Below the pieces are notes generated by a model that was not told the origin of the DNA, made no database searches, and was given only the letters and a program-made list of their open reading frames with translations. Positions 8,940-24,037 of a DNA stretch of 43,403 nt are shown in pieces. Location: assembly GCA_030645455.1 (NCBI GenBank), contig JAUSNA010000062.1:1-43403 (forward strand), read 5' to 3'. This DNA comes from Candidatus Levyibacteriota bacterium. GTDB taxonomy: Bacteria > Patescibacteriota > Microgenomatia > Levybacterales > GWA1-39-11. How positions within the stretch are numbered: the first letter of the stretch is position 1; every line of letters begins with the position of its first letter. The translations under genes were made by a program, and so were the position numbers.

Positions 8940-11207
8940 TTAACCGGAGTTTTGTGGGGGACTTCCACCACCGCCTTCACGTCTTCTTTTTTCATCCTCA
9001 TCTGCACGGGCAAGCCCTGCATCAATAGATCTGTCAGATGCGCCACCGCCACCGCTTGAAGGTCCTTCTCCTCTTGCATCTCCTAGCGCTTCATTTACTC
9101 CCTCGGCAGCTCCTTCGCGTGCTGCTGCCTCCACACTCTCTGCGGATGGTCCTCCAAGTGTGATATTAATTCCACTTCTTCCCCCGCTGCCTCCACCATT
9201 TCCAGTCGCGCCGCTTGATGGTAGGGGTTCTGTTGATCCCTCAGTTGCTATGATCCCACTCTGAGAACCAAGGGTAGTGCGCGCTTGGTTTCGGAAGCTC
9301 TCCATTGCTTGTTTTACCTCCGGGGTGTCGTGGTCCGGAACGATTCCCTGCCTCATTGCCATTCTTCTTGCTTCAGCCTCAACTTGTGCATCTGACACAG
9401 GAGTTAGTGAAGGAGAGTGCGTAGTAGGTTGGGATGATTTGCTTCTAAATAGTCCAAACCTTTTTTTTGCTTGACTTGGCCCAGTTGCAATTGGAGAAGC
9501 TTCCGATTCGGGTTCTCCCCGCATCCTTCTTTCGTGTGCCCTTCTGGCATTCACTTTTTGTTCAATCCTTTTCCCTATGGGAGTTTTATTGAGCTTGAAT
9601 GCCCTTGCAACTTTTCCTCCCACCTTCATTGTCTGGTCATCAATTGTGCTGCGCAAAATCCCTTTGCTTCCATCTCTTTTTTCACCCATTAATTCTTTCC
9701 ATGCTCCTCCGATAGGTTTTGACACGTATCCTTGACCCTGTCCAATGGCTTTGCCAATGGCCGCTGTGTATTTCAACTCCGGAGCTTTCAGGGTGCTTTT
9801 AGTAATGGTTACCGCCTCCGGCATGATGAGGATGATGCCAAGTCCTAAAATGGAGGCAATAGCGTCACCGCTACTAGTGCCCGGGTTTCCAATGAGGGGC
9901 GGAACGAAGGTTCCGCTGGTGTTAAATGCCTGATCCTGCATGGTTTTTCCTATCATAAAAAGTACGACTACTGCTGGAAACGCTGCAAGGTTAGCAATAA
10001 GACTTCTTATCCAGGGGCCGACTCCTCCGGGGGCGCCGGGGAGTAATCCCCCAATTATCCAAAAAGGTGCAAAAATAACATCCAGGAAGATAAAAATGTA
10101 GGCTTTAATAAGCATGAACCATACTCTAAAAAGTGAGGTAAACACAGCAACCGAGATAATTAAGTAAGCAATTGCCATGGCAATAAGGCCTAGTATTTTT
10201 GTTCCCCCAACAAGCCCTACGATTGCTCCTATCGCCCCACCAATCAGTCCCCCAAATCCACCAAAGAGAGAGCCCCCAATAAAAGATCCGATTATTCCCG
10301 TAACAACCATTCCAATCCAGCTTCCAATACTGCCGGAGAAAAGAGAGCTTACCATTCCTCCAACCCCTTGAGCGGCGGGAGCTGCAATTCCATTAATTCC
10401 TCCAAGACTCCCCATAGCACTTACGGGATTCGTATCGATATTTGTCATTGTAGTTAACCCTTGGCTTTCAAATATATGAATAACAAGATAAATACCGACG
10501 TACATCATGTCTATCAAAAAACCAGCTATGGCATACGAGAGAGTAATAAGTACAAGTCCGATTATTATTTTTGGAATTTGGTTTTGTATTGTCATAATTG
10601 ACCTTGCGTCAATGTTAACCCTGAACATGATTCCAAGTCCCAATAAAATGAAGATAAATACAAACAAAAGATACGTTAAGTTTCTAAATGTTTTCCAAAT
10701 ATCAAGAACCGGTGTGAGTCCGACAAAGCCGATTCCTTTCCCAAATCCGGTTACTGTTGTCCCACCGCCTTCTTCAGCCGGAAATGCTGCAAGAGAATTT
10801 TTTGTTATTCCAAAATGTGACGCTAGATACTGACCATAATGAGATGTTGAAACAGGGATATTAAATGTTCCCCCAATCATGCCACCCATAATAGAAGCAA
10901 GGCCTGCACCGTTCTCAACATACCCGATTTTTTTCGTGACAGGGTCTATTCCAAGGCACTTTTCATCAGGGTTAAGCATATCTACTCCCCCAACAAAACA
11001 TGTAGCGGTTGATAGAACTTCAATAAATACATTCTGTGTGTATGTATGAAAATTTTGAGGGACGTCAGGATTGGTATTGAGGGGATATGCAGTAGTTTTT
11101 TCTTGAGGCACATCATTCGCAATAGGGACTGAGGTTTGTGCGTGAGAAGTATTAGCGAAAATGAAGAAGATGGGAAAAAATAATAGAGCAGCGAATAACT
11201 TTTTCAT
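8940..11207 (-). CDS. VirB6/TrbL-like polytopic membrane protein
   Basis: This 755-aa protein starts at the ATG giving MKKLFAALLFFPIFF; the ORF-track start is a GTG two codons earlier. A signal peptide ends SHAQ. About 150 exported residues follow, then a set of membrane helices (YLLFVFIFILLGLGIMF and IIIGLVLITLSYAIAGFLI), a very Gly-rich hydrophobic stretch (residues ~260-340), further helices to about 480, and a ~270-residue soluble tail that is basic first and then Gly/Ser-rich and acidic. Multi-helix core plus long tail is the layout of VirB6/TrbL inner-membrane channel proteins of type IV secretion systems. It resembles the proteins called VirB6-like in CPR genomes; sequence similarity to classical VirB6 is weak. 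Confidence 0.7.
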   Translation of the reverse strand: MKKLFAALLFFPIFFIFANTSHAQTSVPIANDVPQEKTTAYPLNTNPDVPQNFHTYTQNVFIEVLSTATCFVGGVDMLNPDEKCLGIDPVTKKIGYVENGAGLASIMGGMIGGTFNIPVSTSHYGQYLASHFGITKNSLAAFPAEEGGGTTVTGFGKGIGFVGLTPVLDIWKTFRNLTYLLFVFIFILLGLGIMFRVNIDARSIMTIQNQIPKIIIGLVLITLSYAIAGFLIDMMYVGIYLVIHIFESQGLTTMTNIDTNPVSAMGSLGGINGIAAPAAQGVGGMVSSLFSGSIGSWIGMVVTGIIGSFIGGSLFGGFGGLIGGAIGAIVGLVGGTKILGLIAMAIAYLIISVAVFTSLFRVWFMLIKAYIFIFLDVIFAPFWIIGGLLPGAPGGVGPWIRSLIANLAAFPAVVVLFMIGKTMQDQAFNTSGTFVPPLIGNPGTSSGDAIASILGLGIILIMPEAVTITKSTLKAPELKYTAAIGKAIGQGQGYVSKPIGGAWKELMGEKRDGSKGILRSTIDDQTMKVGGKVARAFKLNKTPIGKRIEQKVNARRAHERRMRGEPESEASPIATGPSQAKKRFGLFRSKSSQPTTHSPSLTPVSDAQVEAEARRMAMRQGIVPDHDTPEVKQAMESFRNQARTTLGSQSGIIATEGSTEPLPSSGATGNGGGSGGRSGINITLGGPSAESVEAAAREGAAEGVNEALGDARGEGPSSGGGGASDRSIDAGLARADEDEKRRREGGGGSPPQNSG

Positions 11208-12835: not shown

Positions 12836-15226
12836 ATGGAATTAACAGGAATTAGACAAAAAGTATTTCTAGACCGCTACGCCTTAAAAGATAAAGACGG
12901 AGAGCTCATTGAAAAGACTCCGGAGGAAATGTGGAAAAGAGTTGCGTGGGGAATTTCTCAAAATGAAAAGAAAAAAGATCAAGCCCATTGGGAAAAAGAG
13001 TTTTATAGAGTCATGGATGAATTTAAATTTGTCCCAGCAGGCAGAATTCTTTCAGGAGCAGGGACAAATTACCAGGTAACGTATTTTAATTGTTTTGTTA
13101 TTCCTTCCCCCAAAGATTCCAGAGACGGAATTTTAGAAAGTCTTAAGCAACTGGTTGAAATTCAAAGCAGAGCGGGTGGAGTAGGGCTAAATTTGTCTTC
13201 TCTTCGTCCCCGCGGGGCCAGGGTTAAAAAAGTAAATGGCACTTCATCGGGTCCTGTCACGTGGGCCGGACTTTTCTCATACGCAACACATGACGTTGTA
13301 CAGCAGGGAGGAAGTAGGCGTGGAGCAACAATGCTTATGCTTTGGGATTGGCACCCTGATATTGAGGAATTTATTACCGTTAAAGAGGATCTGTCAAAAA
13401 TTAACGGCGCGAATTTGTCCGTTTGTGTTTCTGACAGTTTTATGGAAGCTGTAAAGGCAGATGCCGATTGGGATTTGGTATACCCTGACATTGATGACCC
13501 TGAATATGATGCGAAATGGAATGGGGAAATTACCGAGTGGAGAGCCATGGGGAAGGCTGTAAAAGTTCACAAAACTGTAAAAGCCAGGTATTTATGGGAT
13601 CTTATTTGCAATGCTGCTTGGAAAAGCGCTGAGCCTGGACTGCATTTTATGGAGCGTTCAAATAAAAGAAGTAACACATGGTATTTTGAGCACTTGATTG
13701 CTACCAACCCTTGTGGAGAACAGCCATTGGGCGCATGGGCTGTATGTAATTTGGGTGCAATGAATTTATCAGCATATGTAAAAGATGCGGACCTTTCAGC
13801 AGAAAAAGCTGGGTGGTTTGATTTTGAGTCTTTTGGTAACGACGCAAAGGTAGCAATGAGGCTTTTAGATAATGTAATTGACCAGACATATTACTTTTTT
13901 AAAGAGAACGAAAAGTGCGCAAAAGAAATCCGCCGCACCGGGCTTGGTATCATGGGGCTTGGGGATGCTCTGATCAAAATGCAGCTTCCTTACGGGTCTG
14001 ATGATTCGATGCCTGTTATCGAAAAGATATTTAAAGTTCTTCGCGATAGTGCATATGAGGCATCCGCCGATTTGGCTGAAGAGAAGGGTTCCTTCCCAAA
14101 ATATGTGAAAGAGAAATACTTGGAAGGGTATCATATAAAGGCTTTACCTAAGAAAATTCGTGAAAAAATTGAAAAGCAGGGAATAAGAAATGCTGTTCTT
14201 CTGACCATTGCCCCGACAGGTACGACATCTCTTGTTTCGGGGGTTTCCTCAGGTGTTGAGCCTGTTTATGAGTTCTCATTTTTGAGGAGATGGAGAGGTG
14301 GAGAAGAGATTATTTACCATCCATTATTTGAAGAATGGAAAAAAGCGCATCAAGAGGCGGAAAAGCCTAGATATTTTGTAAGCGCAAATGACCTGACTCC
14401 ACTTGAACACGTAAGAGTGCAGGCAGTTGCCCAAGAATATATTGACTCTTCAATTTCAAAGACTGTCAATGCGCCAAATTCCCACACGATTGATGACGTA
14501 AAAACGCTTTACATGATGGCATATGACATGGGACTAAAGGGCGTCACATATATGAGGGATGGATCACGACAGGGAGTTTTGGAGAGGGTAGATGAGAAGA
14601 AAAAAGAGGACGTTAAAGAAGCGCAAAGTATGCCAATCCGGAAAAGACCTTTGGCACTCTCGGGAGTCACACACGAAACCCAGACCCCTCTCGGAAATAC
14701 CTTCATTACGATAAATCACGATAGTGAAGGTAAACCTTTTGAGCTTTTTATCAATTCCGGAAAATCAGGAAGTGATGTAATGGCAATGTCTGAGGCGTTG
14801 GGACGCATTATGTCTATGGTATTAAGAATGCAATCTCCCGTTGAGCCCCGCGAAAGAATTCGTGAAATGATAGATCAGTTGACCGGAATTGGCGGGGGAA
14901 GATCTGTCGGATTTGGACCCAATAGGGTCAGATCCCTTCCTGATGCGGTTGCAAAAGTTTTGGCCGAGCATTTTGAATTCCGGGTGAACGGACATGTAGC
15001 AGACAAGCTCCCCATGAAAGCGATCATGGCAGATACCGCAAAAGAGTCAGAAAAAGTAGAAGTAAAAGAAAGTCCAAGCGTTGTGACGCAAGCACCACTT
15101 CCTATTGTTGCAGCATCGCTTCAGGCTCATCCGAATGCGGATCTTTGCCCCGAGTGTGGAGCTGCCGCATTTGTTCACGAAGAAGGATGTGCCAAGTGCT
15201 ACGCGTGTGGACACGCAGAGTGCTAG
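12836..15226 (+). CDS. nrdJ: Adenosylcobalamin-dependent (class II) ribonucleotide reductase
   Basis: This 796-aa protein reduces ribonucleotides to deoxyribonucleotides using AdoCbl as radical source. Visible motifs are the active-site segment NPCGEQPLG (~residues 290), APTGTTSLVSGVSSGVEPVY, GGSRRGAT and FNCFVIPSP with the N-terminal redox Cys. The C-terminal zinc-ribbon tail has LCPECG and CAKCYACGHAEC, typical of the NrdJ_Z type. There is no N-terminal ATP cone. The ORF-track start adds 15 residues encoded by AT-rich spacer; I chose the ATG giving MELTGIRQKVF, where homology should begin. It is transcribed with nrdR and followed at once by a cobalamin riboswitch and pduO, which makes its cofactor. 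Confidence 0.95.
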   Translation: MELTGIRQKVFLDRYALKDKDGELIEKTPEEMWKRVAWGISQNEKKKDQAHWEKEFYRVMDEFKFVPAGRILSGAGTNYQVTYFNCFVIPSPKDSRDGILESLKQLVEIQSRAGGVGLNLSSLRPRGARVKKVNGTSSGPVTWAGLFSYATHDVVQQGGSRRGATMLMLWDWHPDIEEFITVKEDLSKINGANLSVCVSDSFMEAVKADADWDLVYPDIDDPEYDAKWNGEITEWRAMGKAVKVHKTVKARYLWDLICNAAWKSAEPGLHFMERSNKRSNTWYFEHLIATNPCGEQPLGAWAVCNLGAMNLSAYVKDADLSAEKAGWFDFESFGNDAKVAMRLLDNVIDQTYYFFKENEKCAKEIRRTGLGIMGLGDALIKMQLPYGSDDSMPVIEKIFKVLRDSAYEASADLAEEKGSFPKYVKEKYLEGYHIKALPKKIREKIEKQGIRNAVLLTIAPTGTTSLVSGVSSGVEPVYEFSFLRRWRGGEEIIYHPLFEEWKKAHQEAEKPRYFVSANDLTPLEHVRVQAVAQEYIDSSISKTVNAPNSHTIDDVKTLYMMAYDMGLKGVTYMRDGSRQGVLERVDEKKKEDVKEAQSMPIRKRPLALSGVTHETQTPLGNTFITINHDSEGKPFELFINSGKSGSDVMAMSEALGRIMSMVLRMQSPVEPRERIREMIDQLTGIGGGRSVGFGPNRVRSLPDAVAKVLAEHFEFRVNGHVADKLPMKAIMADTAKESEKVEVKESPSVVTQAPLPIVAASLQAHPNADLCPECGAAAFVHEEGCAKCYACGHAEC

Positions 15227-15232
15227 GTTTTT

Positions 15233-15325
15233 ATTTTATACAGGTAATCACGGTGTAAATCCGTGAGTGTGCCGCAACTGTCAAACTCAGAAAACTGTAT
15301 AAAATCTACCGCCCGAGCAAGGCTT
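15233..15325 (+). ncRNA. Compact cobalamin riboswitch upstream of pduO
   Basis: The core GTGCCGCAACTGT and a CACGG-TGTAAAT-CCGTG hairpin (P4/L4-like, GGTG-x-AA-x2-CC) are classic cobalamin-aptamer elements. They are enclosed by a perfect 11-bp P1 stem, ATTTTATACAG (15233-15243) with CTGTATAAAAT (15295-15305). Downstream CGAGCAAGG, reminiscent of the L13 loop of class II (env8-like) aptamers, lies against the pduO ATG, so control is probably translational. The aptamer is short (73 nt between P1 ends), and I do not see the L5 partner that the second riboswitch has. It begins 6 bases after the nrdJ stop. Confidence 0.75.
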
Positions 15326-16016: not shown

Positions 16017-17297
16017 ATGATTACTGAAGCAAGACCATATTTACCAACCCCAAAAGAAGCCAGTTCTTGGCAAGACTTACGGAAAAATGCATCTATTAAT
16101 GGTGCTCATGATGCGCTTATCCCCCAGGAATATGCAGGAGTGACGAAAAGTGCCCCTTTTGCATTTGATTTAGGCCGCGAAAACCAACTGGCTCAAGAGT
16201 ATGGTAAAAATTACCAGCAATATTTTTTGGAGAATGCGCATTACTACGCAAAAGAGTCATATGGGAGAGTTCCGATAAGCGAGTACGAGCACAAGATCAT
16301 GGCAGGAAAAGATGGCAAGCCAGAATTAGTTTTGGGGCCTGAAAATATTTCAGCAAGAGACAGTTATTTGGTACCTGTTCTTGATAAGACAAAGCCCGAG
16401 TGGTATCAGCGGCGCTCTATGGGAGATGTGGTGTGGGTTGAAAATATGGAAAAGATGTTGGAGAACGCTGAGGATGGTGACACCTATGTTGATTTTAGTC
16501 CGACAGAATACAACGTTGACGTAGAAGAGAGAAAAAAATGGGGATACGGATACCATAGTTTTGTCAGACTTCATAAAGTGGTGACTGAGGACGGTCAAAA
16601 AAAGCTTGTGTCTAGAGCAATTAGAAATTATTTAGATGCGCCCGAACAAACAGCCCTTTTTGAGCAATTAACAGGCGAGGTATTAGACGCTTCTCAAATG
16701 CTTGGAAGAGTAGAAAGAGTAAATCCGAATTATTCTCAAGCGTATGTCAAAGCATTGGCTTCTAGATTGTATGATTCAACGCCTATCGAGCGGAAAATTA
16801 TTCCCCCATCTGAATATTTACAAAATATTAAAAGCGAGGAAGAAATGAATATAGCTCTTAAAAAAATTGATGCATGGCTTGAGGTGGTTTATGAAATGAT
16901 GGAGAGAGGGGAGGATACCCACGATATACTAAAAAAATTCCGCGGATGGGAAAATGCATTGAGAGATTACGTAAATGAAAAAAGTTCTTTGGAAAAATTC
17001 AGTAAAATGTCACGACAAGACATGAAAGTTGCACTCTATCAGGAGAGCGATCAAGTCAAGGATCTTTTGGAAAGAGCTTATGAACCAGGGACAAATGGCT
17101 GTGGGGCAGGGTCAGGATTTTCCGAAACAGAGAGGAATATGACATCAATGACATATGAATCTATGACCAAAACAACCGAGGGGGCATGCCCTGAAATTAA
17201 ATGTAAAAAATGCACATGGAAGGCAAATGAGCGAGAGGTTGACGATATAACTAAAGGAAAACTTAATAAATGCCCCCGGTGCGGTTGGAAACCATAG
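16017..17297 (+). CDS. Unknown protein with C-terminal zinc ribbon under cobalamin riboswitch control
   Basis: This 426-aa soluble protein has no signal peptide or membrane helix. The N-terminal ~250 residues look globular (for example YGYHSFVRLHKVV, DGDTYVDFSPTEYN); residues ~255-350 are helical. A Cys-rich tail follows: GTNGCGAGSG, then ACPEIKCKKCTW and, 18 residues on, KCPRCGWKP, which form a four-Cys zinc ribbon. No family was recognised. It is the last gene of nrdR-nrdJ-pduO and has its own cobalamin riboswitch, so it should be made when AdoCbl is scarce. Possible roles are corrinoid capture or processing, a B12-independent bypass, or a reductase accessory factor; none is supported by a motif. 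Confidence 0.8.
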   Translation: MITEARPYLPTPKEASSWQDLRKNASINGAHDALIPQEYAGVTKSAPFAFDLGRENQLAQEYGKNYQQYFLENAHYYAKESYGRVPISEYEHKIMAGKDGKPELVLGPENISARDSYLVPVLDKTKPEWYQRRSMGDVVWVENMEKMLENAEDGDTYVDFSPTEYNVDVEERKKWGYGYHSFVRLHKVVTEDGQKKLVSRAIRNYLDAPEQTALFEQLTGEVLDASQMLGRVERVNPNYSQAYVKALASRLYDSTPIERKIIPPSEYLQNIKSEEEMNIALKKIDAWLEVVYEMMERGEDTHDILKKFRGWENALRDYVNEKSSLEKFSKMSRQDMKVALYQESDQVKDLLERAYEPGTNGCGAGSGFSETERNMTSMTYESMTKTTEGACPEIKCKKCTWKANEREVDDITKGKLNKCPRCGWKP

Positions 17298-17331: not shown

Positions 17332-18039
17332 GTGTTGGATTTTTTTGTTTCACTTTTGTACCCGAAGAAATGTGTAAGGTGTAAAAAAAATGGGGCGTAC
17401 ATTTGTGATAATTGTTTTGCGGGAATATCCTTTTTGGAATATCAGTTGTGCGCAATTTGCCAGAAGGGGTCAATTGATGGATTAACTCACCCAAAATGCA
17501 GGACAAAATACGGAATAGATGGGATAATTTCATCCATTGCTTATAAAGGTATTGTCAAAAAACTCCTCTATCAATTTAAATACCCTCCATATCTTTCGGA
17601 TCTCAAACAAATTCTAGGTAGACTTTTTTACGAAGGGCTCATTCAGCAAGAATCTTTTATGAAATATATAGAGGAAAAAAGCGCGGTGATTACTTCTGTG
17701 CCGTTGCATATTTCCCGTGAAAAAAAGAGAGGATATAATCAGTCCGAATTGTTGGGTTTGGAATTATCAAAAAGACTTAATCTTCCGTTCTCTTCAGGTC
17801 TGCTTATCCGAAAGGTTAGAACAAAACCCCAATTTGAGCTTACAAAAGAAGAGCGGAAAAGTAATATCTTGGGAGTATTCATAGTTGCTCCAAAATTTGA
17901 AAAACAAATAAAAGGGAAAAGAATTATTCTTGTTGATGATATTTCAACAACGGGAAGTACCTTGAGGGAATGCGCGAAAATATTAAAAAAGAGTGGTGCG
18001 GAAAAAGTTTTGGGAGTAACCCTCGCCCATGAGGGGTAG
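17332..18039 (+). CDS. comF: ComF family phosphoribosyltransferase-like protein
   Basis: This 235-aa protein has an N-terminal zinc finger with Cys pairs CVRCKK, CDNC, CAICQK and a later Cys (HPKC), followed by a type I phosphoribosyltransferase fold. The PRPP loop is IILVDDISTTGSTLRECA near residue 200. ComFC proteins are linked to DNA uptake and to strand handling during transformation in competent bacteria. Length and architecture are normal. The last 57 bases overlap the convergent HTH gene at 17983. It starts with GTG, supported by the -10 spacing. Confidence 0.9.
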   Translation: MLDFFVSLLYPKKCVRCKKNGAYICDNCFAGISFLEYQLCAICQKGSIDGLTHPKCRTKYGIDGIISSIAYKGIVKKLLYQFKYPPYLSDLKQILGRLFYEGLIQQESFMKYIEEKSAVITSVPLHISREKKRGYNQSELLGLELSKRLNLPFSSGLLIRKVRTKPQFELTKEERKSNILGVFIVAPKFEKQIKGKRIILVDDISTTGSTLRECAKILKKSGAEKVLGVTLAHEG

Positions 18040-18285
18040 GGCTATCTTGCTATTCATAAGATTTTCAATTCGTCGTTCTCTTTTAATTTGGAAATATGCT
18101 ACATCTGTTGGAGAGTAAAAACGAGTCACTCTATTTTTGTGAACCCTTTTTTCATTGGGTAGTTTGCCGTATGCTGCTGCCTGTTGTATTCCACTCTCCG
18201 TTAGACCTGTTAAAGCTGCTACATCCTTTGTTTTTAGAGTCCTTTCGAAGTCTCCGATTGGAATAAATGAGTATTCAGTTTCCAT
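17983..18285 (-). CDS. Small helix-turn-helix (MerR/excisionase-like) protein
   Basis: This 100-aa protein has a MerR/HTH_17-like DNA-binding region: LKTKDVAALTGLTESGIQQA (helix-turn-helix) followed by a wing-like RVTRFYSPTDVAYFQIKRER. The tail overlaps the end of comF on the other strand, so its last residues may be poorly constrained. The start lies 14 bases from the direct repeat at 18300, just outside the integrated element. Before insertion it would have followed ssrA directly, so its original expression may have depended on ssrA read-through. It could be an excisionase-like factor or a host regulator. Confidence 0.65.
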   Translation of the reverse strand: METEYSFIPIGDFERTLKTKDVAALTGLTESGIQQAAAYGKLPNEKRVHKNRVTRFYSPTDVAYFQIKRERRIENLMNSKIALPLMGEGYSQNFFRTTLF

Positions 18286-18299
18286 TTATTAATAATTAA

Positions 18300-18310
18300 G
18301 GTGTGGAGAT
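18300..18310 (+). repeat. Left attachment-site repeat of the ssrA-integrated element
   Basis: GGTGTGGAGAT is identical to 23146-23156, where it forms the 3' end of the tmRNA gene (opposite strand). It marks the left junction of the element carrying the serine recombinase. An exact 11-base match at this position is unlikely to be chance. Confidence 0.75.
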
Positions 18311-18430
18311 CCCGCTAGAAAGTTGGAACCACATCCAGGAGTATATCATGAGAGGCTACGAGTTTGTATATGCCTAGTGTTGAGGGTGAAAATTGTATTC
18401 ATTAATCACATGAAGGGAGTTGAACCGCTA

Positions 18431-18439
18431 TGCTATAAT
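18431..18439 (+). promoter_or_regulatory. Extended -10 promoter of the DUF3467-toxin-antitoxin operon
   Basis: TGCTATAAT (extended -10) ends 6 bases before the ATG at 18446. No strong -35 is present, which an extended -10 can tolerate. The spacing predicts a leaderless mRNA and identifies 18446 as the start rather than the ORF-track start at 18323. Confidence 0.65.
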
Positions 18440-18445
18440 TCACCT

Positions 18446-18706
18446 ATGGCAGATCAACCAAAAGTAAACATAAAAGTAAAGGTAGCCGACCAGGTACGAC
18501 CACCTCTATTTGCTAACGTTGTCAACATAACTACCACATCAGAGGGAGATGTTTTTCTAGATTTTGTGTCGGTGCATCCAAGTGAGAAGGATCAAGATGG
18601 ATCATCTTTAGGTACTTTGGTTTCAAGAATTGTGCTTCAAAAAAATGTGGCTAAGGATTTACAACTAATCTTGAATGCACATCTTGGACAGCCAAAAAAG
18701 GAGTAA
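18446..18706 (+). CDS. DUF3467 domain protein
   Basis: This 86-aa protein matches the DUF3467 pattern: a short lead (VRPPLFANVVNITTTSEGDV), then FLDFVSVHP, a loop, TLVSRIVLQKNVAKDLQLIL and a polar tail. Members are small beta-rich proteins of unknown function found in bacteria, archaea and mobile DNA. The start is fixed by the extended -10 six bases upstream; the longer ORF-track version would read through the promoter. It is first of three tightly spaced genes with the toxin-antitoxin pair (2-base gap to the next). Confidence 0.8.
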   Translation: MADQPKVNIKVKVADQVRPPLFANVVNITTTSEGDVFLDFVSVHPSEKDQDGSSLGTLVSRIVLQKNVAKDLQLILNAHLGQPKKE

Positions 18707-18708
18707 AT

Positions 18709-18963
18709 ATGCCATTAATTGATTACAACATACAAAAAGAAGAATCGAGTCTTCCTCAGGTGACTTCAAAAAATACCTTCCCGAATTATTATCAGTTGAC
18801 GTTTATTAGTACGGGTAGCCACGACAATAGTATTACCATCAAACAACAAGCCAAATTACTAGTCGAACATATGGATATTATTACTGAATCACGAAATTTA
18901 ATAAAGCAAAAAAAGGTGATAACGTGGGATGAATTACTCGAAAAAGATGCAAAAGAACAATGA
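18709..18963 (+). CDS. Probable antitoxin of a RelE-like module
   Basis: This 84-aa protein belongs to no family I recognise. It has a polar, beta-prone N-terminus and a helical acidic/basic C-terminus (ITWDELLEKDAKEQ) of the kind that wraps a toxin. The evidence for antitoxin function is position: it immediately precedes and overlaps a RelE/ParE-like toxin gene. A strong Shine-Dalgarno (AGGAG, 5 bases before the ATG) marks it as an internal operon gene. It ends with TGA. It has no obvious DNA-binding motif, so autoregulation may need another factor. Confidence 0.65.
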   Translation: MPLIDYNIQKEESSLPQVTSKNTFPNYYQLTFISTGSHDNSITIKQQAKLLVEHMDIITESRNLIKQKKVITWDELLEKDAKEQ

Positions 18964-19246
18964 AACATCTTACTCTATAATACTTCCATCTCAAGGACGA
19001 GGATCAAAAGAAATAACACTACTATTAAGGGAGAGAAAGCCACAATTGCTAAAAGCCATTAATAAGCTCAAGGTTCATCCAACTGATTTTTCCAAGCAAG
19101 GAATCGAAAAGTTACAAAATAGTAAGCTTGGCGATTATAGTATACGAGTAACTAAAAATCATCGCCTTTTTTATGATGTTGACCTTAAAAATAAAAGGGT
19201 GAATATCTTACGTGTTGGTAAACATGATCTTTACAAATTAGTTTAA
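18947..19246 (+). CDS. RelE/ParE superfamily toxin
   Basis: This 99-aa protein shows the RelE/ParE-like core: helical LKAINKLKVHP, then IEKLQNSKLGDYSIRVTKNHRLFYDV and the final strand VNILRVGKHDLYKLV. Conserved basic residues (the Arg of SIRV and of NHR, and the His in KHD) suit an mRNA interferase or gyrase-type toxin. The reading frame overlaps the upstream gene; starts at 18929 or 18947 are both possible. I chose 18947 because it shortens the overlap. The target cannot be told from sequence. It probably stabilises the integrated element. Confidence 0.75.
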   Translation: MQKNNETSYSIILPSQGRGSKEITLLLRERKPQLLKAINKLKVHPTDFSKQGIEKLQNSKLGDYSIRVTKNHRLFYDVDLKNKRVNILRVGKHDLYKLV

Positions 19247-19276
19247 AAAAACGTAAATCTACGATTTTTGAAATTT

Positions 19277-19927
19277 ATGACTTTTATCAGGTTGAAGGCC
19301 ATTTTAGATGTAGCGAAAAGAATACACATCTCTTCAATATCAAGAATCGATTTCGACAAGGAAGATAAAAAACACGCAATTTATTTACTCCAGGGTGGTG
19401 TTTTGACGGCGGTAAGCAATGCCTTCCAATTTAATCTAAACGGTTTTTATGTACCTACTACTCAGCAGAAGAGACTAATTGATGAAGCCATTGATCTTAT
19501 ATGGTTTTTCGATGAAAATTTAAAGAAACAAAGACAACTAAGAGCATGGTTTGCAGGTAGAATCGTTGAGCGTGTTCCAGGGAATGAAGGGAACCTAACT
19601 CTTAAACAACGAGCAGAAATAAATCTCTTGGATATAGATCGTATTCAAAAAATGGACGATCTACAAAAAACAATAAATCATATTGTCTCTGAAGTAATGC
19701 ACCCCACGATTAAAGCCATGAGGGCAAATAGTAGTAAAAGGACTCACTTATTTGATTACGACAATTTAACTCCCAAGAAGCCTCAATATAGCCCTGAGAA
19801 TTTTGGCAATATGTTTGTGGTCCCTTCACTTTTTTCATTGTTAATACCCATAAGGCATCTTCAAGTAAATAATGCACAATTTGACATATTGCGTTCTTAC
19901 GTAAGGGATATTGAGAATAATAGATAA
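19277..19927 (+). CDS. Element-borne helical protein, function unknown
   Basis: This 216-aa protein is mostly helical with many Lys, Arg and Ile and no signal peptide. The ATG used gives MTFIRLKAIL; the ORF-track start is an upstream TTG. The middle shows LIDLIWFFDENLKKQRQLR-like amphipathic helices, and a hydrophobic segment near the C-terminus (FVVPSLFSLLIPIRHLQ) may be buried. No family was recognised. It follows the toxin gene after about 30 bases on the same strand, and its base composition resembles the AT-rich element. It might be a defence or stress cargo protein, but no motif supports that. Confidence 0.65.
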   Translation: MTFIRLKAILDVAKRIHISSISRIDFDKEDKKHAIYLLQGGVLTAVSNAFQFNLNGFYVPTTQQKRLIDEAIDLIWFFDENLKKQRQLRAWFAGRIVERVPGNEGNLTLKQRAEINLLDIDRIQKMDDLQKTINHIVSEVMHPTIKAMRANSSKRTHLFDYDNLTPKKPQYSPENFGNMFVVPSLFSLLIPIRHLQVNNAQFDILRSYVRDIENNR

Positions 19928-19942
19928 ATTTCACCCCTTGTT

Positions 19943-20149
19943 TCAAGAGAATAATTCACCTACTTTTACTTTTAACACTCTAGCAAGTTTCTCAATAACC
20001 TTAATTGAGGGAGATTTTCTGCCTTGCTCAATATGTCCTATATGAGTCCTGCTCATGTTTGTTTTTTCTGCTAGTTCTTCCTGCGTTATGTCGAGATTTT
20101 TTCTTAGTCTTTGAATTTTCTTACCCAATCTTTCTTTTGTATTGGCCAT
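19943..20149 (-). CDS. XRE-family (Cro/CI-type) HTH regulator
   Basis: This 68-aa protein is nearly all one HTH_3 domain: ERLGKKIQRLRKNLDITQEE, then LAEKTNMSRTHIGHIEQGRK and SPSIKVIEKLARVLKV. This is the size of phage and plasmid regulators. I chose the ATG giving MANTKERL; the ORF-track start adds nine unlikely residues. It is convergent with the 216-aa gene and divergent from the 138-aa gene at 20257. It is a likely regulator of element genes, possibly of the divergent promoter. Confidence 0.88.
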   Translation of the reverse strand: MANTKERLGKKIQRLRKNLDITQEELAEKTNMSRTHIGHIEQGRKSPSIKVIEKLARVLKVKVGELFS

Positions 20150-20219
20150 ATCGTAATTATTGATAGCCAATAGCACTCAATCCACTAGCTTAAAGCGAGC
20201 ATTTAGCTTCAGATAGTGC

Positions 20220-20248
20220 TTGTGTTCAATTTCTCTTGGAAGTATCAT
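20220..20248 (+). promoter_or_regulatory. Promoter of the 138-aa membrane protein gene
   Basis: TTGTGT (20220-20225), a 17-base spacer and TATCAT (20243-20248) end 8 bases before the ATG at 20257. It lies in the divergent region next to the XRE regulator, so it may be that regulator's target. Confidence 0.5.
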
Positions 20249-20256
20249 TAACATAT

Positions 20257-20673
20257 ATGAAAATTCTTCCCTTGAAGAATCAAAAACAGCTAACCCCTAC
20301 CAACGTAATTTTATTTGTTATAGCCTTAATCTTATTTTTTGGTCTTTTTAAAAAAGAGATACCTGAGTGGACAAAATATTATTTACCTTCTATTGTCAAA
20401 CAAATAGATGGAAGTACTCAAATAATGTGCATGGAGAATAAGGAAAATCCCAAATGGAAAGCAGAAATGGAAAAAGTGTATCGAGAAGTCACTGAGAAAT
20501 GTTTTAAGGAGCAAAACAATCACTATTCATACGATTGCATGATGCTAGGATTTGATGCTCAAGAAGAGATTTCAATACCTCAAACTGTAACTAATGAAGC
20601 AATTTGTTATGAGCCAGTCTATAAATGGTGGTTTTATGCGTTTGGTAGATATTGGTTTAAATTAGGTTTTTAA
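20257..20673 (+). CDS. Small membrane-anchored protein, function unknown
   Basis: This 138-aa protein has one membrane helix near the N-terminus (NVILFVIALILFFGLF, residues ~18-33). The remaining ~100 residues are probably outside the membrane and hold five Cys (IMCMENK, EKCFKEQ, YDCMMLG, AICYEPV). The ATG chosen gives MKILPLKNQK; the ORF-track start is an upstream TTG. No family was recognised. It lies on the integrated element, divergent from the XRE regulator and convergent with the 20678 gene. Confidence 0.65.
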   Translation: MKILPLKNQKQLTPTNVILFVIALILFFGLFKKEIPEWTKYYLPSIVKQIDGSTQIMCMENKENPKWKAEMEKVYREVTEKCFKEQNNHYSYDCMMLGFDAQEEISIPQTVTNEAICYEPVYKWWFYAFGRYWFKLGF

Positions 20674-20677
20674 TTAT

Positions 20678-21196
20678 TCATTTAACAGAAATACTTTTAG
20701 CTACATCTAATAGTGTTCGTTTGTTGGAATTATAAAATTCATCTGTAACGTTAACATCAAGAACATATTGTACCTCAGCTTTATTAAATTCATCTGTTTT
20801 ATTAAAAAATACAATATACGATATTTTTCCATTTTTTAGCTCTTTTAAGAAAGAAGCTTTTCTGCCATCATTTAATATTATTTCGCCACGCTCGATGGGG
20901 TCATCTTGTTGAGAAAATGACCATGGTGTATATGAAGCGTAGGTAATAATTTCATTGTAAGGTTTTTCATCTAACAACACTTTACCATCACCATTTGTTG
21001 CAGTATAGCCTTCTTTCCATGATTTTGGGTAAGTAATTGAGAAACCAAATCTTATATTCTTGTATGTTTTCAAGTTTTTGTTGGGAGTAAAAGAAGAGAA
21101 TTGAGAACTTAATATCAAGAAAAATAATCCCAATACACAAGCTATTAGTAATAAAATTATCAACAGGTACTTTTTAATTATTTTGAGGTTAACCAT
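20678..21196 (-). CDS. Membrane-anchored PsbP-like domain protein
   Basis: This 172-aa protein has an N-terminal anchor or uncleaved signal (YLLIILLLIACVLGLFFLIL). The segment after it contains YKNIRFGFSITYPKSW, the start of a PsbP-like/DUF1795-type domain (a short loop followed by F-x-ITYP-x-SW), common in anchored proteins of CPR and Gram-positive bacteria. The domain fills the rest of the protein and is extracytoplasmic. A TATAAT lies 13 bases upstream of the ATG. Its role in the element is unknown. Confidence 0.7.
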   Translation of the reverse strand: MVNLKIIKKYLLIILLLIACVLGLFFLILSSQFSSFTPNKNLKTYKNIRFGFSITYPKSWKEGYTATNGDGKVLLDEKPYNEIITYASYTPWSFSQQDDPIERGEIILNDGRKASFLKELKNGKISYIVFFNKTDEFNKAEVQYVLDVNVTDEFYNSNKRTLLDVAKSISVK

Positions 21197-21389
21197 GTAA
21201 TTAGCCTAATTATAAGTGTTCGTACTGACAAATAACAATGTTAGTTTAGGGTAGGCGGAGTGCCTCTTCTAAGGCAAGGAATAGGAAGATCAGACCACAT
21301 CTCATCATAAATATTTTATTAGCCTCAAACTTTTTCAGGATATTTAACTGATTGCAAGATTAAAGTATATAAAATCGACCGCTTCAAAG

Positions 21390-21418
21390 TTGACAAAGTT
21401 AAGTACAAACATTAATAT
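21390..21418 (+). promoter_or_regulatory. Sigma70-type promoter of the small ORF-recombinase operon
   Basis: TTGACA (21390-21395), a 17-base spacer and TAATAT (21413-21418). Unlike most promoters here it makes an ~80-base leader before the first ORF, which suggests regulation in the leader. Confidence 0.7.
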
Positions 21419-21470
21419 ACTCACATACAGCAATTGTCCCGTAAAACGGACTAGCCCAACTAGAGGCATT

Positions 21471-21505
21471 ACTTTTCCCTTGACCTGGAGTGGTCAGGAA
21501 AAAGT
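21471..21505 (+). promoter_or_regulatory. Hairpin covering the ribosome binding site of the small ORF
   Basis: ACTTTTCCCTTGACC and GGTCAGGAAAAAGT form an imperfect stem with a 6-base loop that ends at the ATG of the 48-aa ORF. The 3' arm contains the only Shine-Dalgarno-like run (AGGA), so folding would hide it. This suggests translational control of recombinase synthesis. Confidence 0.6.
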
Positions 21506-21652
21506 ATGCCAATTACACCCTCAGAAGCCAGAAAAACCCTAGGTAATAAAGCAGAAAAAATGTCAGATAAAGACATTGAAAACCTTCTTATAGCATTGCG
21601 TCAGCTTTGTAGTGGTATTATAGATAGCGTAACTGAAGAAAAAATTACATGA
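21506..21652 (+). CDS. 48-aa ORF translationally coupled to the serine recombinase
   Basis: It is too short for the ORF track. The frame starts MPITPSEARKTLGNKAEKMS and continues as a predicted amphipathic helix (DKDIENLLIALRQLC). Its TGA overlaps the recombinase ATG as ATGA, which is strong evidence for translation and coupling. Promoter, leader hairpin and Shine-Dalgarno precede it. Small proteins placed like this may act as a recombination directionality factor or a regulator of the recombinase, but there is no homology to support either. Confidence 0.75.
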   Translation: MPITPSEARKTLGNKAEKMSDKDIENLLIALRQLCSGIIDSVTEEKIT

Positions 21653-23193
21653 AAGCACTTATTTATTGTAGAGTTTCTAGCCAAAGACAAGTAGATGAGG
21701 GTAACGGTTTAAGTTCTCAGGAGCAAAGATGTAGGGGTTATTGTAAGAATAAAAATTATATTGTCGAAAAAGTCTTCTCTGATGGGGCGGTCTCGGGAAA
21801 GCTTTTTGAAAGACCAGCAATGCGAGAACTTCTAAACTATGTTGATAATCATCCCTCAGAAAAATATGCAGTTGTGTTTGACGATTTATCAAGGTTTTCA
21901 AGAGATATGGAGGCTCAGTTACGATTAAGGACAGAATTTAATGCAAGGGAACTTAAGCGGGAATGTTTAAATTTTACGTTCGATGAGACTCCAGAAAGCG
22001 AATATGCAGAACTTGTGCTTACTGCTGGAAATCAATATCAAAGACAATCCAATAGACGGCAGGTTATACAAAAGCAAAAAGCTAGGCTTGAGAAAGGTTA
22101 CTGGGCATTCTATCCACCCCTAGGACTGTCAGCGGTAGCAGATCCTTTACACGGTAAACTACTTCAATCAATAGAACCGTATGCAACCATCATCAAGAAA
22201 GCACTTGAAAGCTATGCTGACGGGCTCTTAAGCACTCAAGAAGACGTCCAAGCTTATATTCTAGGTAAATATAGAGAACTAGGTATAAATAAGAAACTTT
22301 CGATGAATGGAACTCAACACATATTGAAACAAATTCTCTATGCAGGTTACATAGAATACCCTAAATGGGGTGTGGAAAGAAGAAAAGCTCAACACAATGG
22401 CTTTATATCGATCGAAACATTTGAAAAAGTACAATTAAGAATAAAAGCTAAAGGAAAGAAATGGACACGACATGATTATTCACAAGATTTTCCATTAAGA
22501 ACACACTTAATTTGTACTCACTGTAATAAGCCCTTAACAGCTTCTTGGAATACGGGAAGACACAAACGCAAATACCCTAACTATTTTTGCATTAATAAGG
22601 TATGTATATACAAAAACAAGGTCATAGGTAGAAATAACATGGAATCACAATTCGTGGAACTATTAAATAAGGTGCAGTTGGACAATGAGGTACTTGAAGT
22701 AGCTAGGATTGTTTTGTCAGACATGTGGAACTCCCGTAAAAGTAACTACGAGGAGATGAAAAGACTTAGCCACCGTCGCATTTCAGAAGTTGAGAAAAAA
22801 GTCAGTAGTCTACTCGAGCGGATAACCAAAACTACAAGCGATGAACTGGTTAGTATTTACGAAGGTGAAATTGAAAAGCACACAAAGGAAATTAAGGATA
22901 TAAAAAAGGAATTATTGGTAAATCCCTATGCTGATGAAAGATTTGGAACCGCTATAGACAATTTGTTCGCAACGTTAAAAAACCCTATAGATATGTGGAA
23001 AAACGATAACGTAAATAACAAAAAAGCGGTTCTATTTGCGTACTTCGGTGGCAAAGTGGAATACGATTACATTAAAGGCTTTGGAAACGCTAGTTTAGCC
23101 TATCCTATCAGTCTAATCGGTGGTATAGGAAGCAAAAAAAACTCTGGTGTGGAGATGGGGGGTAATGAACCCCCGTCCAAAAATCATATCTAA
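21649..23193 (+). CDS. Large serine recombinase (integrase) of the ssrA element
   Basis: This 514-aa protein has an N-terminal resolvase domain with catalytic Ser10 in IYCRVSSQRQVDEG and the conserved VFDDLSRFSRD. A recombinase domain follows (~residues 150-270), then a zinc ribbon (LICTHCNKPL and YFCINKVC) and a coiled coil (~350-425). It catalyses integration and excision at attachment sites. The last 15 codons, from the repeat GGTGTGGAGAT onward, are antisense to the tmRNA 3' end, so its C-terminus (SGVEMGGNEPPSKNHI) is donated by the host target site. In the excised circle the frame would instead run into left-end sequence. Confidence 0.9.
   Translation: MKALIYCRVSSQRQVDEGNGLSSQEQRCRGYCKNKNYIVEKVFSDGAVSGKLFERPAMRELLNYVDNHPSEKYAVVFDDLSRFSRDMEAQLRLRTEFNARELKRECLNFTFDETPESEYAELVLTAGNQYQRQSNRRQVIQKQKARLEKGYWAFYPPLGLSAVADPLHGKLLQSIEPYATIIKKALESYADGLLSTQEDVQAYILGKYRELGINKKLSMNGTQHILKQILYAGYIEYPKWGVERRKAQHNGFISIETFEKVQLRIKAKGKKWTRHDYSQDFPLRTHLICTHCNKPLTASWNTGRHKRKYPNYFCINKVCIYKNKVIGRNNMESQFVELLNKVQLDNEVLEVARIVLSDMWNSRKSNYEEMKRLSHRRISEVEKKVSSLLERITKTTSDELVSIYEGEIEKHTKEIKDIKKELLVNPYADERFGTAIDNLFATLKNPIDMWKNDNVNNKKAVLFAYFGGKVEYDYIKGFGNASLAYPISLIGGIGSKKNSGVEMGGNEPPSKNHI
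23146..23156 (+). repeat. Right attachment-site repeat, at the tmRNA 3' end
   Basis: GGTGTGGAGAT is the second copy of the 18300 repeat. On the minus strand it is the 3' part of the tmRNA acceptor stem and its tail (ATCTCCACACC), so integration preserved a working tmRNA. Confidence 0.75.
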
Positions 23194-23556
23194 AAACATC
23201 TACAAGCGTAGTTAATTAATAATTGTCGTTTTGCTATTAACCAATTAACAGGAAGAGCAATTCCAAGATTTTATTTTTTGGACAATAATCAAATCATTTT
23301 TATTGTCCTATCCCAAACTGTGTTTATACTCATGCCTAATCCGTTTAGGAAAAGAAGCGACATGAATACGCCTGCTTACGCAGCTGCAAACGCAGGGACG
23401 AATCCCCTTGAAGGCATAAGGTCAGCAGCGAACTGCTTAACCTTGCGGCTGATGGACGTGCCGTCAGCATGTATTTTTGATCCTTTTTTACGGCTTTGAA
23501 TCATTGCCGGCTTGCAGTTTTTAAAGTACAATTCTTGTCGATACAATTGCATCCCC
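23150..23556 (-). ncRNA. ssrA: Transfer-messenger RNA (tmRNA)
   Basis: The 5' end GGGGATG pairs with 3' CATCTCC to form a 7-bp acceptor stem followed by A. TATCGACAAGAATTG matches the conserved TCGAC region behind the acceptor, and the 3' part has the T-arm GGGGG-TTCATTA-CCCCC. The tag reading frame (23376-23429, minus) is probably AADLMPSRGFVPAFAAA then TAA, read from GCT after CAGTTC. It rescues stalled ribosomes with SmpB, whose gene is immediately upstream. CCA is not cleanly encoded after the discriminator (CACACCA follows), so CCA addition may be needed. Length about 407 nt. Confidence 0.92.
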
Positions 23557-23596: not shown

Positions 23597-24037
23597 TCAG
23601 AACTCATTTTTGAGTTCACGTTCTTGGTCGCGATTGATGGCCTGTTGTTTTAAATCCTTTCTTCTTTCGTGTTGTTTTTTTCCTTTGGCTACTCCAATTT
23701 CCAGCTTAAATTTCCCATGTTTTTCATAAAGGGAGAGTGGAGTGACGGTATATTTTCCCGTATCCAGCATATTTTTTATTTTTAGAAGCTCCTTTTTGTG
23801 AAGAAGCAGCTTTCGAGTCCTGTCCTCCATGTATCCCTCAACTCTCGAGTATTGGTAAGGAAAAATTTTGGCATTAATAAGATATGCCTCGCCGCTCATG
23901 AGTTTTACATAAGCGCTTTTGAGGTCAACATGGTCAAGCCGAATGGCTTTAACCTCGGATCCTAAGAGCTGTATTCCTGCCTCGAATTTTTCTTCAACGT
24001 TAAATTTACTTGGTGCAGCTTTGTTGAATATTTTCAT
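23597..24037 (-). CDS. smpB: SsrA-binding protein SmpB
   Basis: This 146-aa protein binds tmRNA and delivers it to stalled ribosomes. Family signatures are NKAAPSKFNVEEKFEAGIQL, GSEVKAIR, YLINAKIFPY, RKLLLHKKE and KLEIGVAKGKKQHERRKDLK with the basic C-terminal tail. Length is normal. Its partner RNA gene lies directly downstream on the same strand. The promoter is an extended -10 ending 6 bases before the ATG, predicting a leaderless mRNA. Confidence 0.95.
   Translation of the reverse strand: MKIFNKAAPSKFNVEEKFEAGIQLLGSEVKAIRLDHVDLKSAYVKLMSGEAYLINAKIFPYQYSRVEGYMEDRTRKLLLHKKELLKIKNMLDTGKYTVTPLSLYEKHGKFKLEIGVAKGKKQHERRKDLKQQAINRDQERELKNEF

Follow-up and report, generated by a model that had tools for sequence, protein, structure and literature searches.

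A small ssrA-specific element in a Levyibacteriota genome probably encodes a large serine integrase whose gene is split by its own integration

The ssrA-specific islands of Dehalococcoides carry a serine recombinase gene, dsiB, that always overlaps the att site and takes its stop codon from ssrA or from a neighbouring island, and such islands also occur in tandem. In the sections of that account considered here, the authors speculated that full function of dsiB may require either the circle or a position behind a neighbouring island with the 'requisite 3' gene fragment' (McMurdie et al. 2011, PMC3146451). In the archaeal suicidal integrases of SSV, pTN3 and pT26-2, attP resides in the integrase gene, integration splits this gene, and the lost part can come from a related element that enters later; a review describes, in the passages drawn on here, self-disrupting recombinases as exclusively archaeal (PMC8371274). 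Here we analyzed a DNA stretch of 43,403 nucleotides (the window hereafter; contig JAUSNA010000062.1 of assembly GCA_030645455.1, Candidatus Levyibacteriota bacterium), in which an element of 4.85 kb is inserted between comF and ssrA. We consider it probable that this element, small and integrative, is specific to ssrA and carries a self-splitting large serine integrase.

The original prediction had placed both ends of the element at an 11-bp repeat, and this placement was borne out: GGTGTGGAGAT has only two exact copies in the window, the right one being the 3' end of the tmRNA gene, and two copies were seen in none of 100 shuffles. The tmRNA is intact (ARAGORN calls it at 23149–23556, minus strand, while the Rfam match starts at 23147). 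We observed that the recombinase frame crosses the right repeat, where 499 element-coded codons (to 23145) are followed by 15 residues, GVEMGGNEPPSKNHI, made of the core and the antisense strand of tmRNA. In the predicted circle junction, ...AACTCT-GGTGTGGAGAT-CCCGCTAGAAAG..., the same frame instead continues from 18300 for 25 codons, GVEIPLESWNHIQEYIMRGYEFVYA, up to the TAG at 18375–18377, which gives a protein of 524 aa. Both readings of the gene end had been proposed earlier, and we reproduced them exactly in coordinates and residues. In the assembly of the same genome only the attL and attR junctions were present; attP and attB junctions were not found. The open run at the left end is by itself unremarkable, as a fraction of 0.22 of base shuffles reach 22 codons, and therefore the question had to be settled by comparison with relatives.

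Next, we looked for empty sites. All the 31 related genomes searched have an ssrA match, above the family cut-off in 28 of them. In L177 (loci of relatives are given by their L numbers), comF ends at 1492, the tmRNA begins at 1501 and smpB lies on the other side. The same arrangement of comF near an uninterrupted ssrA 3' end, with smpB opposite, was observed in L201, which together with L177 belongs to the same family as the window genome, and further away in L176, L193, L194, L182, L184 and L202; other relatives (e.g. L175, L179 and L189) have a different local gene order at ssrA. As comF lies beside ssrA in these relatives, the window carries an insertion between the two genes. An uninterrupted ssrA in a close relative that also has the genes of the 18.3–23.1 kb region, which would speak against such an insertion, was sought at the ssrA loci and did not turn up. 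The short shared core, the intact tmRNA and the empty sites are together those of a site-specific insertion.

The borrowed gene end is not confined to the window. Recombinase homologues were found in 51 of the 99 related genomes searched, and all seven closest homologues from other genomes end antisense in tmRNA. In a set of 69 recombinase ORFs (the loci from the homologue search plus the window, leaving out L111b, L124 and L125), 61 end antisense in a tRNA or tmRNA gene, 52 as called by ARAGORN and nine more by Rfam, whereas this is true for only one of 410 other ORFs of at least 250 codons at the same loci, and that one is itself a serine recombinase. The targets are tmRNA and the tRNAs for Leu, Lys, Glu, Asn, Gly, His, Pro, Phe, Arg, Tyr and Ala. 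No antisense tRNA or tmRNA end was found for L034, L044, L047, L053, L054, L060 and L116; the eighth ORF of this kind, L066, was scanned by ARAGORN only and not by Rfam.

We then compared the far ends of the elements. Left ends located through the core repeat encode, in the recombinase frame, SVDISDLSWNRIQDYIFKWYPIL (L022), SVDSLEIDWNQIESYIWKWFPVI (L023), SVDIDEISWNQIEEYIWKWYPIL (L027) and IVEEVSGSWNQLEALVFEWYGIL (L066), which together with the window tail follow a conserved C-terminal consensus of about [V][DE]xxxxxWNxIxxYIxRWYPxL. A profile built from these five left ends found tails blindly in L028 (E-value of 1e-10), L106 (5e-13), L104, L105, L107, L108, L111 and L113, every one of them with the V[DE] codon inside the att core. 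A wider profile added L128, exact core repeats gave tails in L068 (13 bp), L128 (12 bp) and L110 (9 bp), and a further profile recovered those of L126 and of the left end of the prophage carrying L130. One subgroup (L117, L120 and L121) showed no tail within 16 kb upstream; sequence further upstream, fetched as a test of the prediction, contained mutually similar tails 21.8–23.9 kb away in L117 (two tails), L120 and L121. A tail in the recombinase frame was hence found in 20 of 30 related elements having at least 3 kb of upstream sequence. This count leaves out L025, L026, L095, L115, L123 and L129, which have less than 3 kb, as well as L124, where a giant open frame replaces the upstream sequence, and L125, which is the same contig stretch as L068. 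The comparison of homologous tails, which had been suggested as a check, thus came out in favour of the predicted exchange.

A few loci showed two left ends about 1–2.6 kb apart with a single recombinase, namely L106 (at 9092 and 10095) and L117 (21.8 and 23.7 kb upstream of the recombinase ORF); L122 has two uncertain left ends, 9.5 and 12.2 kb upstream. These pairs suggest tandem accretion in which the older recombinase was lost.

The tails behave as protein-coding sequence. Across 14 aligned tails the recombinase frame has no stop, against 12–16 stops in each other frame, and the BLOSUM62 score is 2.72 per column compared to 0.18 (sd 0.29) in column shuffles, none of 1000 of which reached 2.72. 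In close pairs the dN/dS values were 0.10/1.56 (L106a/b) and 0.16/1.35 (L104/L108). On these alignments, we concluded that the tail is under purifying selection. One could argue that the left-end frame is a separate small gene acting in trans with the truncated recombinase, since the core offers a GTG start and GTG opens the conserved frame, or that what is conserved is an arm of attP as DNA, the first tail codons falling within the length expected of attP. However, synonymous changes dominate the close pairs, the conserved segment extends at least 60 bp past the core, and two loci, L143 and L111, have the tail joined in frame to a recombinase, so that either version of this explanation appears extremely unlikely.

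The first of these loci, L143, encodes an unsplit recombinase of 533 aa ending in ...VLVDISGESSNSFLDILRNWSDALNPYKSTLLAA within a 27-kb phage contig, with replication genes on one side and tail-completion, terminase and portal genes on the other. Its homologue L140 is 71% identical over the body, but ends antisense in tRNA-Ala. The L143 contig showed no terminal repeat and is therefore a linear fragment rather than a proven circle. In the second, L111, a decayed recombinase that lacks its start continues in frame into the tail belonging to the next element of a tandem array. L139/L221 had also been considered as a second unsplit gene and was set aside, the adjoining sequence being unclear. The last residues of some tails are small and hydrophobic (L143 ...STLLAA, L128 ...LEFAG, window ...FVYA), as might be expected of a degron that keeps the free-form integrase short-lived until integration stabilizes the protein, and an attP inside a repressor gene is known from the integration-dependent systems of mycobacteriophages in the part of the literature consulted (PMC4557955). 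The conservation is, however, centred on the WNxI...RWYP segment and not on the last residues, and we regard a degron as very unlikely.

Upstream of those tRNA-targeting recombinases that are more distant, we compared the in-frame sequence following each core match, assuming no motif. One outlier pair, L036/L039, scored 89, the next pair scoring 41 and the wrong-frame controls at most 33 and 36. The tails of this distant branch are VTQRVKVRNHIIPDLIKYFQLF for L036 (at tRNA-Lys) and VTPRVEVRNHIIPDLITLFNLF for L039 (at tRNA-Glu), and L033 (tRNA-Glu) has VTQMFSNWNQIRASLEQWKPIL.

Taken together, the split gene and the conservation of the tail place attP inside the integrase gene, and therefore integration exchanges the tail. 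The earlier claim to this effect is strongly supported by the empty sites, the conserved in-frame tail at the far end, the purifying selection and the two unsplit genes. Splitting of the integrase gene through an internal attP, the defining feature of suicidal integrases, is thus found here, as seen from the tails of the 20 elements and from L143 and L111.

The exchanged part comprises only the last 25–45 residues, which follow a conserved body ending in GFGTAxLxxPxxLI, and the catalytic, recombinase, zinc-ribbon and coiled-coil parts are untouched by it. Pfam recognizes only Resolvase in the window recombinase; relatives have Resolvase and Zn_ribbon_recom, with Recombinase above the cut-off in L066 and below it in L143, L027 and L106. 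The model of L143, a homologue in the free form, matched the SPbeta, Bxb1, PhiC31 and A118 integrases in Foldseek. Residue S10, the nucleophile by family and predicted to be catalytic, is invariant across the recombinase alignment. An N-terminal resolvase catalytic domain, then recombinase and zinc-ribbon domains with a coiled coil, is the arrangement that marks large serine recombinases, and it is present here. As all main domains remain after integration, the loss of the tail could be devoid of regulatory meaning: attP would have drifted into the gene end through a need to be near the integrase, the tail would be used when present, and the tail-less protein would work well enough. The purifying selection on the tail speaks against this, as does an architecture that recurs at many RNA-gene targets and, with another tail, in the distant branch; we take this reading to be unlikely.

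The sequences show the following arrangement. On the circle or in the free phage, the integrase gene runs uninterrupted across attP and ends in the conserved tail of 25–45 residues. Crossover at the 3' end of ssrA, or of a tRNA gene in relatives, cuts the gene within the core. The tail is then left behind at the opposite, left end of the element, and the integrated recombinase is completed by a short non-homologous tail and a stop codon that the target RNA gene supplies from its antisense strand. Excision would give the tail back, and so would a second element that enters the same site and brings its left end behind the older gene, as seen once, in L111. We find it fairly likely that the tail-bearing form is the integrase proper and that loss of the tail weakens or changes the enzyme, so that integration would turn down its own enzyme.

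The original prediction had read the exchange as a possible switch between integration and excision forms. In such a switch of direction, the tail-bearing form would perform attP x attB recombination and the tail-less form would be adapted to attL x attR excision, in place of a directionality factor or as an aid to one. The gene body stays open in nearly all integrated copies, the tail exchange is perfectly coupled to the state of integration, and no directionality factor was recognized by Pfam in the window element, although no search was aimed at such factors. On the other hand, the integrated tails are dictated by the target RNA gene, vary in length and sequence, and the one in the window is predicted to be disordered (pLDDT of about 32). 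Only the loss of the tail can therefore carry information. Moreover, the studied serine integrases, in the descriptions drawn on here, require an added directionality factor for excision. Hence, we hold a switch of this kind to be rather doubtful; a conserved circle tail set against an antisense integrated tail agrees with an off-switch or with self-inactivation no less well than with an excision form.

Several observations weigh against self-inactivation through an exchanged tail. Ten of the 30 elements yielded no tail; six of these (L024, L109, L112, L116, L118 and L119) stop at a contig end, whereas L067, L114, L122 and L127 do not (L122 is ambiguous), and L114 and L122 read the core in a frame other than that of GTG-GA[CG]. 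For most of the distant tRNA-targeting recombinases a tail was not identified. Searching with protein profiles favours protein-like conservation, and the open frame of the tails found in this way is therefore partly given by construction; the close pairs and the tails found through the core are less affected. The window tail itself lacks the second conserved Trp and has RGYE instead of RWYP. AlphaFold draws the L143 tail as a helix of low predicted confidence (pLDDT of 32–56) without placing it. As most integrated genes stay open, the tail-less protein may keep a function. That the circle form integrates, and that its activity changes upon loss of the tail, is what we infer from sequence comparison.

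A broader proposal may tentatively be made: a wide and so far unrecognized class of bacterial integrases, of tRNA/tmRNA elements and of phages, could use the rearrangement of its own gene as directionality control. The tail-bearing form would integrate, and the tail-less form written by integration would be inactive or capable only of the reverse reaction, up to the point at which the tail is brought back by excision or by a superinfecting tandem element. We regard this generalization as possible, though not yet probable.

Coordinates of the element, its target and the flanking genes in the window are collected below. The ORF upstream of the toxin-like gene could be its antitoxin. When the cargo was compared by tblastn (usable rows being the cargo genes other than the DUF3467 gene), the XRE-type regulator had homologues in many other fetched element loci. 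Neither the ORF list nor Pfam revealed a second serine recombinase in the element. The gap of 260 bp between comF and the left repeat holds the orphan ORF, whose 3' end overlaps the end of comF in antisense; it has no homologue in 98 related genomes and is perhaps a remnant of an older insertion. It had also been considered as a directionality factor, an idea dropped as no relatives were found.

Table 1. Features of the window at and around the element
Feature	Coordinates	Strand	Basis
comF-like phosphoribosyltransferase gene, host flank left of element	17332..18039	+	Pfam PF00156 and PF18912; comF adjoins uninterrupted ssrA in relatives
Orphan 100-aa ORF between comF and left repeat, outside element	17983..18285	-	ORF list; no Pfam match
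att core, left copy (attL)	18300..18310	+	Exact repeat
Severed 3' end of recombinase gene (25-codon circle-form tail and TAG)	18300..18377	+	Frame reading and comparison with relatives
DUF3467 protein, cargo	18446..18706	+	Pfam PF11950
84-aa ORF upstream of toxin-like gene, cargo	18709..18963	+	ORF list; no Pfam match
ParE/YoeB-type toxin-like protein, cargo	18929..19246	+	PF05016 barely above cut-off; PF06769 below cut-off
219-aa protein, cargo	19268..19927	+	ORF list; no Pfam match
XRE-type HTH regulator, cargo	19943..20176	-	Pfam PF01381
145-aa ORF, cargo	20236..20673	+	ORF list; no Pfam match
172-aa ORF, cargo	20678..21196	-	ORF list; PsbP_2 below cut-off only
Large serine recombinase, integrated form, 514 aa	21649..23193	+	Pfam Resolvase PF00239
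att core, right copy (attR), ssrA 3' end	23146..23156	+	Exact repeat and tmRNA match
ssrA (tmRNA), intact target gene	23147..23556	-	Rfam RF00023, 121.3 bits
smpB, host flank right of element	23597..24037	-	Pfam PF01668

Some RNA features were noted along the way. Hairpins resembling intrinsic terminators lie directly 3' of the tmRNA end in L027 (10320–10339 and 6238–6257) and L062 (732–751), all on the minus strand. Of the two in L027, one falls within the coding end of the recombinase and the other sits at the left end, both on the tmRNA strand, as if the element brought a replacement tmRNA terminator within its own gene; the totals of the terminator scan were no higher than in shuffles. The L107 locus has a LOOT RNA (RF03000, 85 bits) at 14540–14656, inside or near the ssrA element, and L060 has a group I intron at 9604–9816, at a locus that also holds a serine recombinase and a cluster of tRNAs. 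Elsewhere in the window, an AdoCbl-II cobalamin riboswitch (15227–15305, 49 bits) lies upstream of the ORF at 16017–17297.

Searches of virus collections added little. Neither the window recombinase nor the circle form of L027 gave matches in IMG/VR when used as a single-protein query, although alignment queries did; the scan with L140 returned only L140 itself, and phage and plasmid collections contained distant integrases only. A search of viral records with the core pattern was discarded as too unspecific.

Serine integrases are prized as one-way tools, and the control of their direction is usually credited to a separate protein. If the tail exchange acts as we propose, one gene and one site would make a self-recording switch, and the principle of the suicidal integrase would extend to bacteria and to the serine family. 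Gene callers give the integrated copies false antisense-tRNA tails, and mined integrases of this class would therefore be cloned without their real C-terminus and possibly scored as inactive. The conserved tail also provides a handle for finding the far end of an element, as was done for the elements of 24 kb.

How does this family compare with the described systems? Textbook large serine integrases such as those of SPbeta, Bxb1, PhiC31 and A118 have attP beside, and not inside, the integrase gene. They share domain order and fold with the window family, as judged from sequence and Foldseek, but their protein is identical before and after integration. The Dehalococcoides islands resemble the window element in having a serine recombinase at ssrA, with its 3' end over the att site, a borrowed stop codon and tandems; in the sections of the paper considered (PMC3146451), the 3' fragment is neither identified nor tested, whereas the families of Patescibacteria and phages analyzed here have a conserved, selected tail at the far end, unsplit genes and many tRNA targets. 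DsiB itself is CcrB-like and accompanied by DsiA in a six-gene integration module, and the window element, with its one serine recombinase, falls outside that family when compared by description rather than by sequence. The phages with integration-dependent immunity (PMC4557955) and phiRSS0 (PMC3816273), in the portions of these reports used here, likewise have attP in a regulatory gene, whose product comes out of integration with its C-terminus changed or truncated, but the rewritten protein is a repressor-type regulator and not the cutting recombinase. As far as titles and abstract openings of the open-licence literature show, a conserved tail severed from a bacterial serine integrase has not been described. 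The archaeal suicidal integrases are tyrosine recombinases split into Int(N) and a catalytic Int(C), whereas the members of the window family are serine recombinases of bacterial hosts (Pfam Resolvase) that lose only a short C-terminal tail while the frame stays open, and so do not belong to the SSV/pTN3/pT26-2 superfamily. The window integrase is best filed under large serine integrases, working like the suicidal integrases from outside their tyrosine family; from its predicted behaviour, it is a bacterial, serine-family counterpart of the archaeal suicidal integrases.

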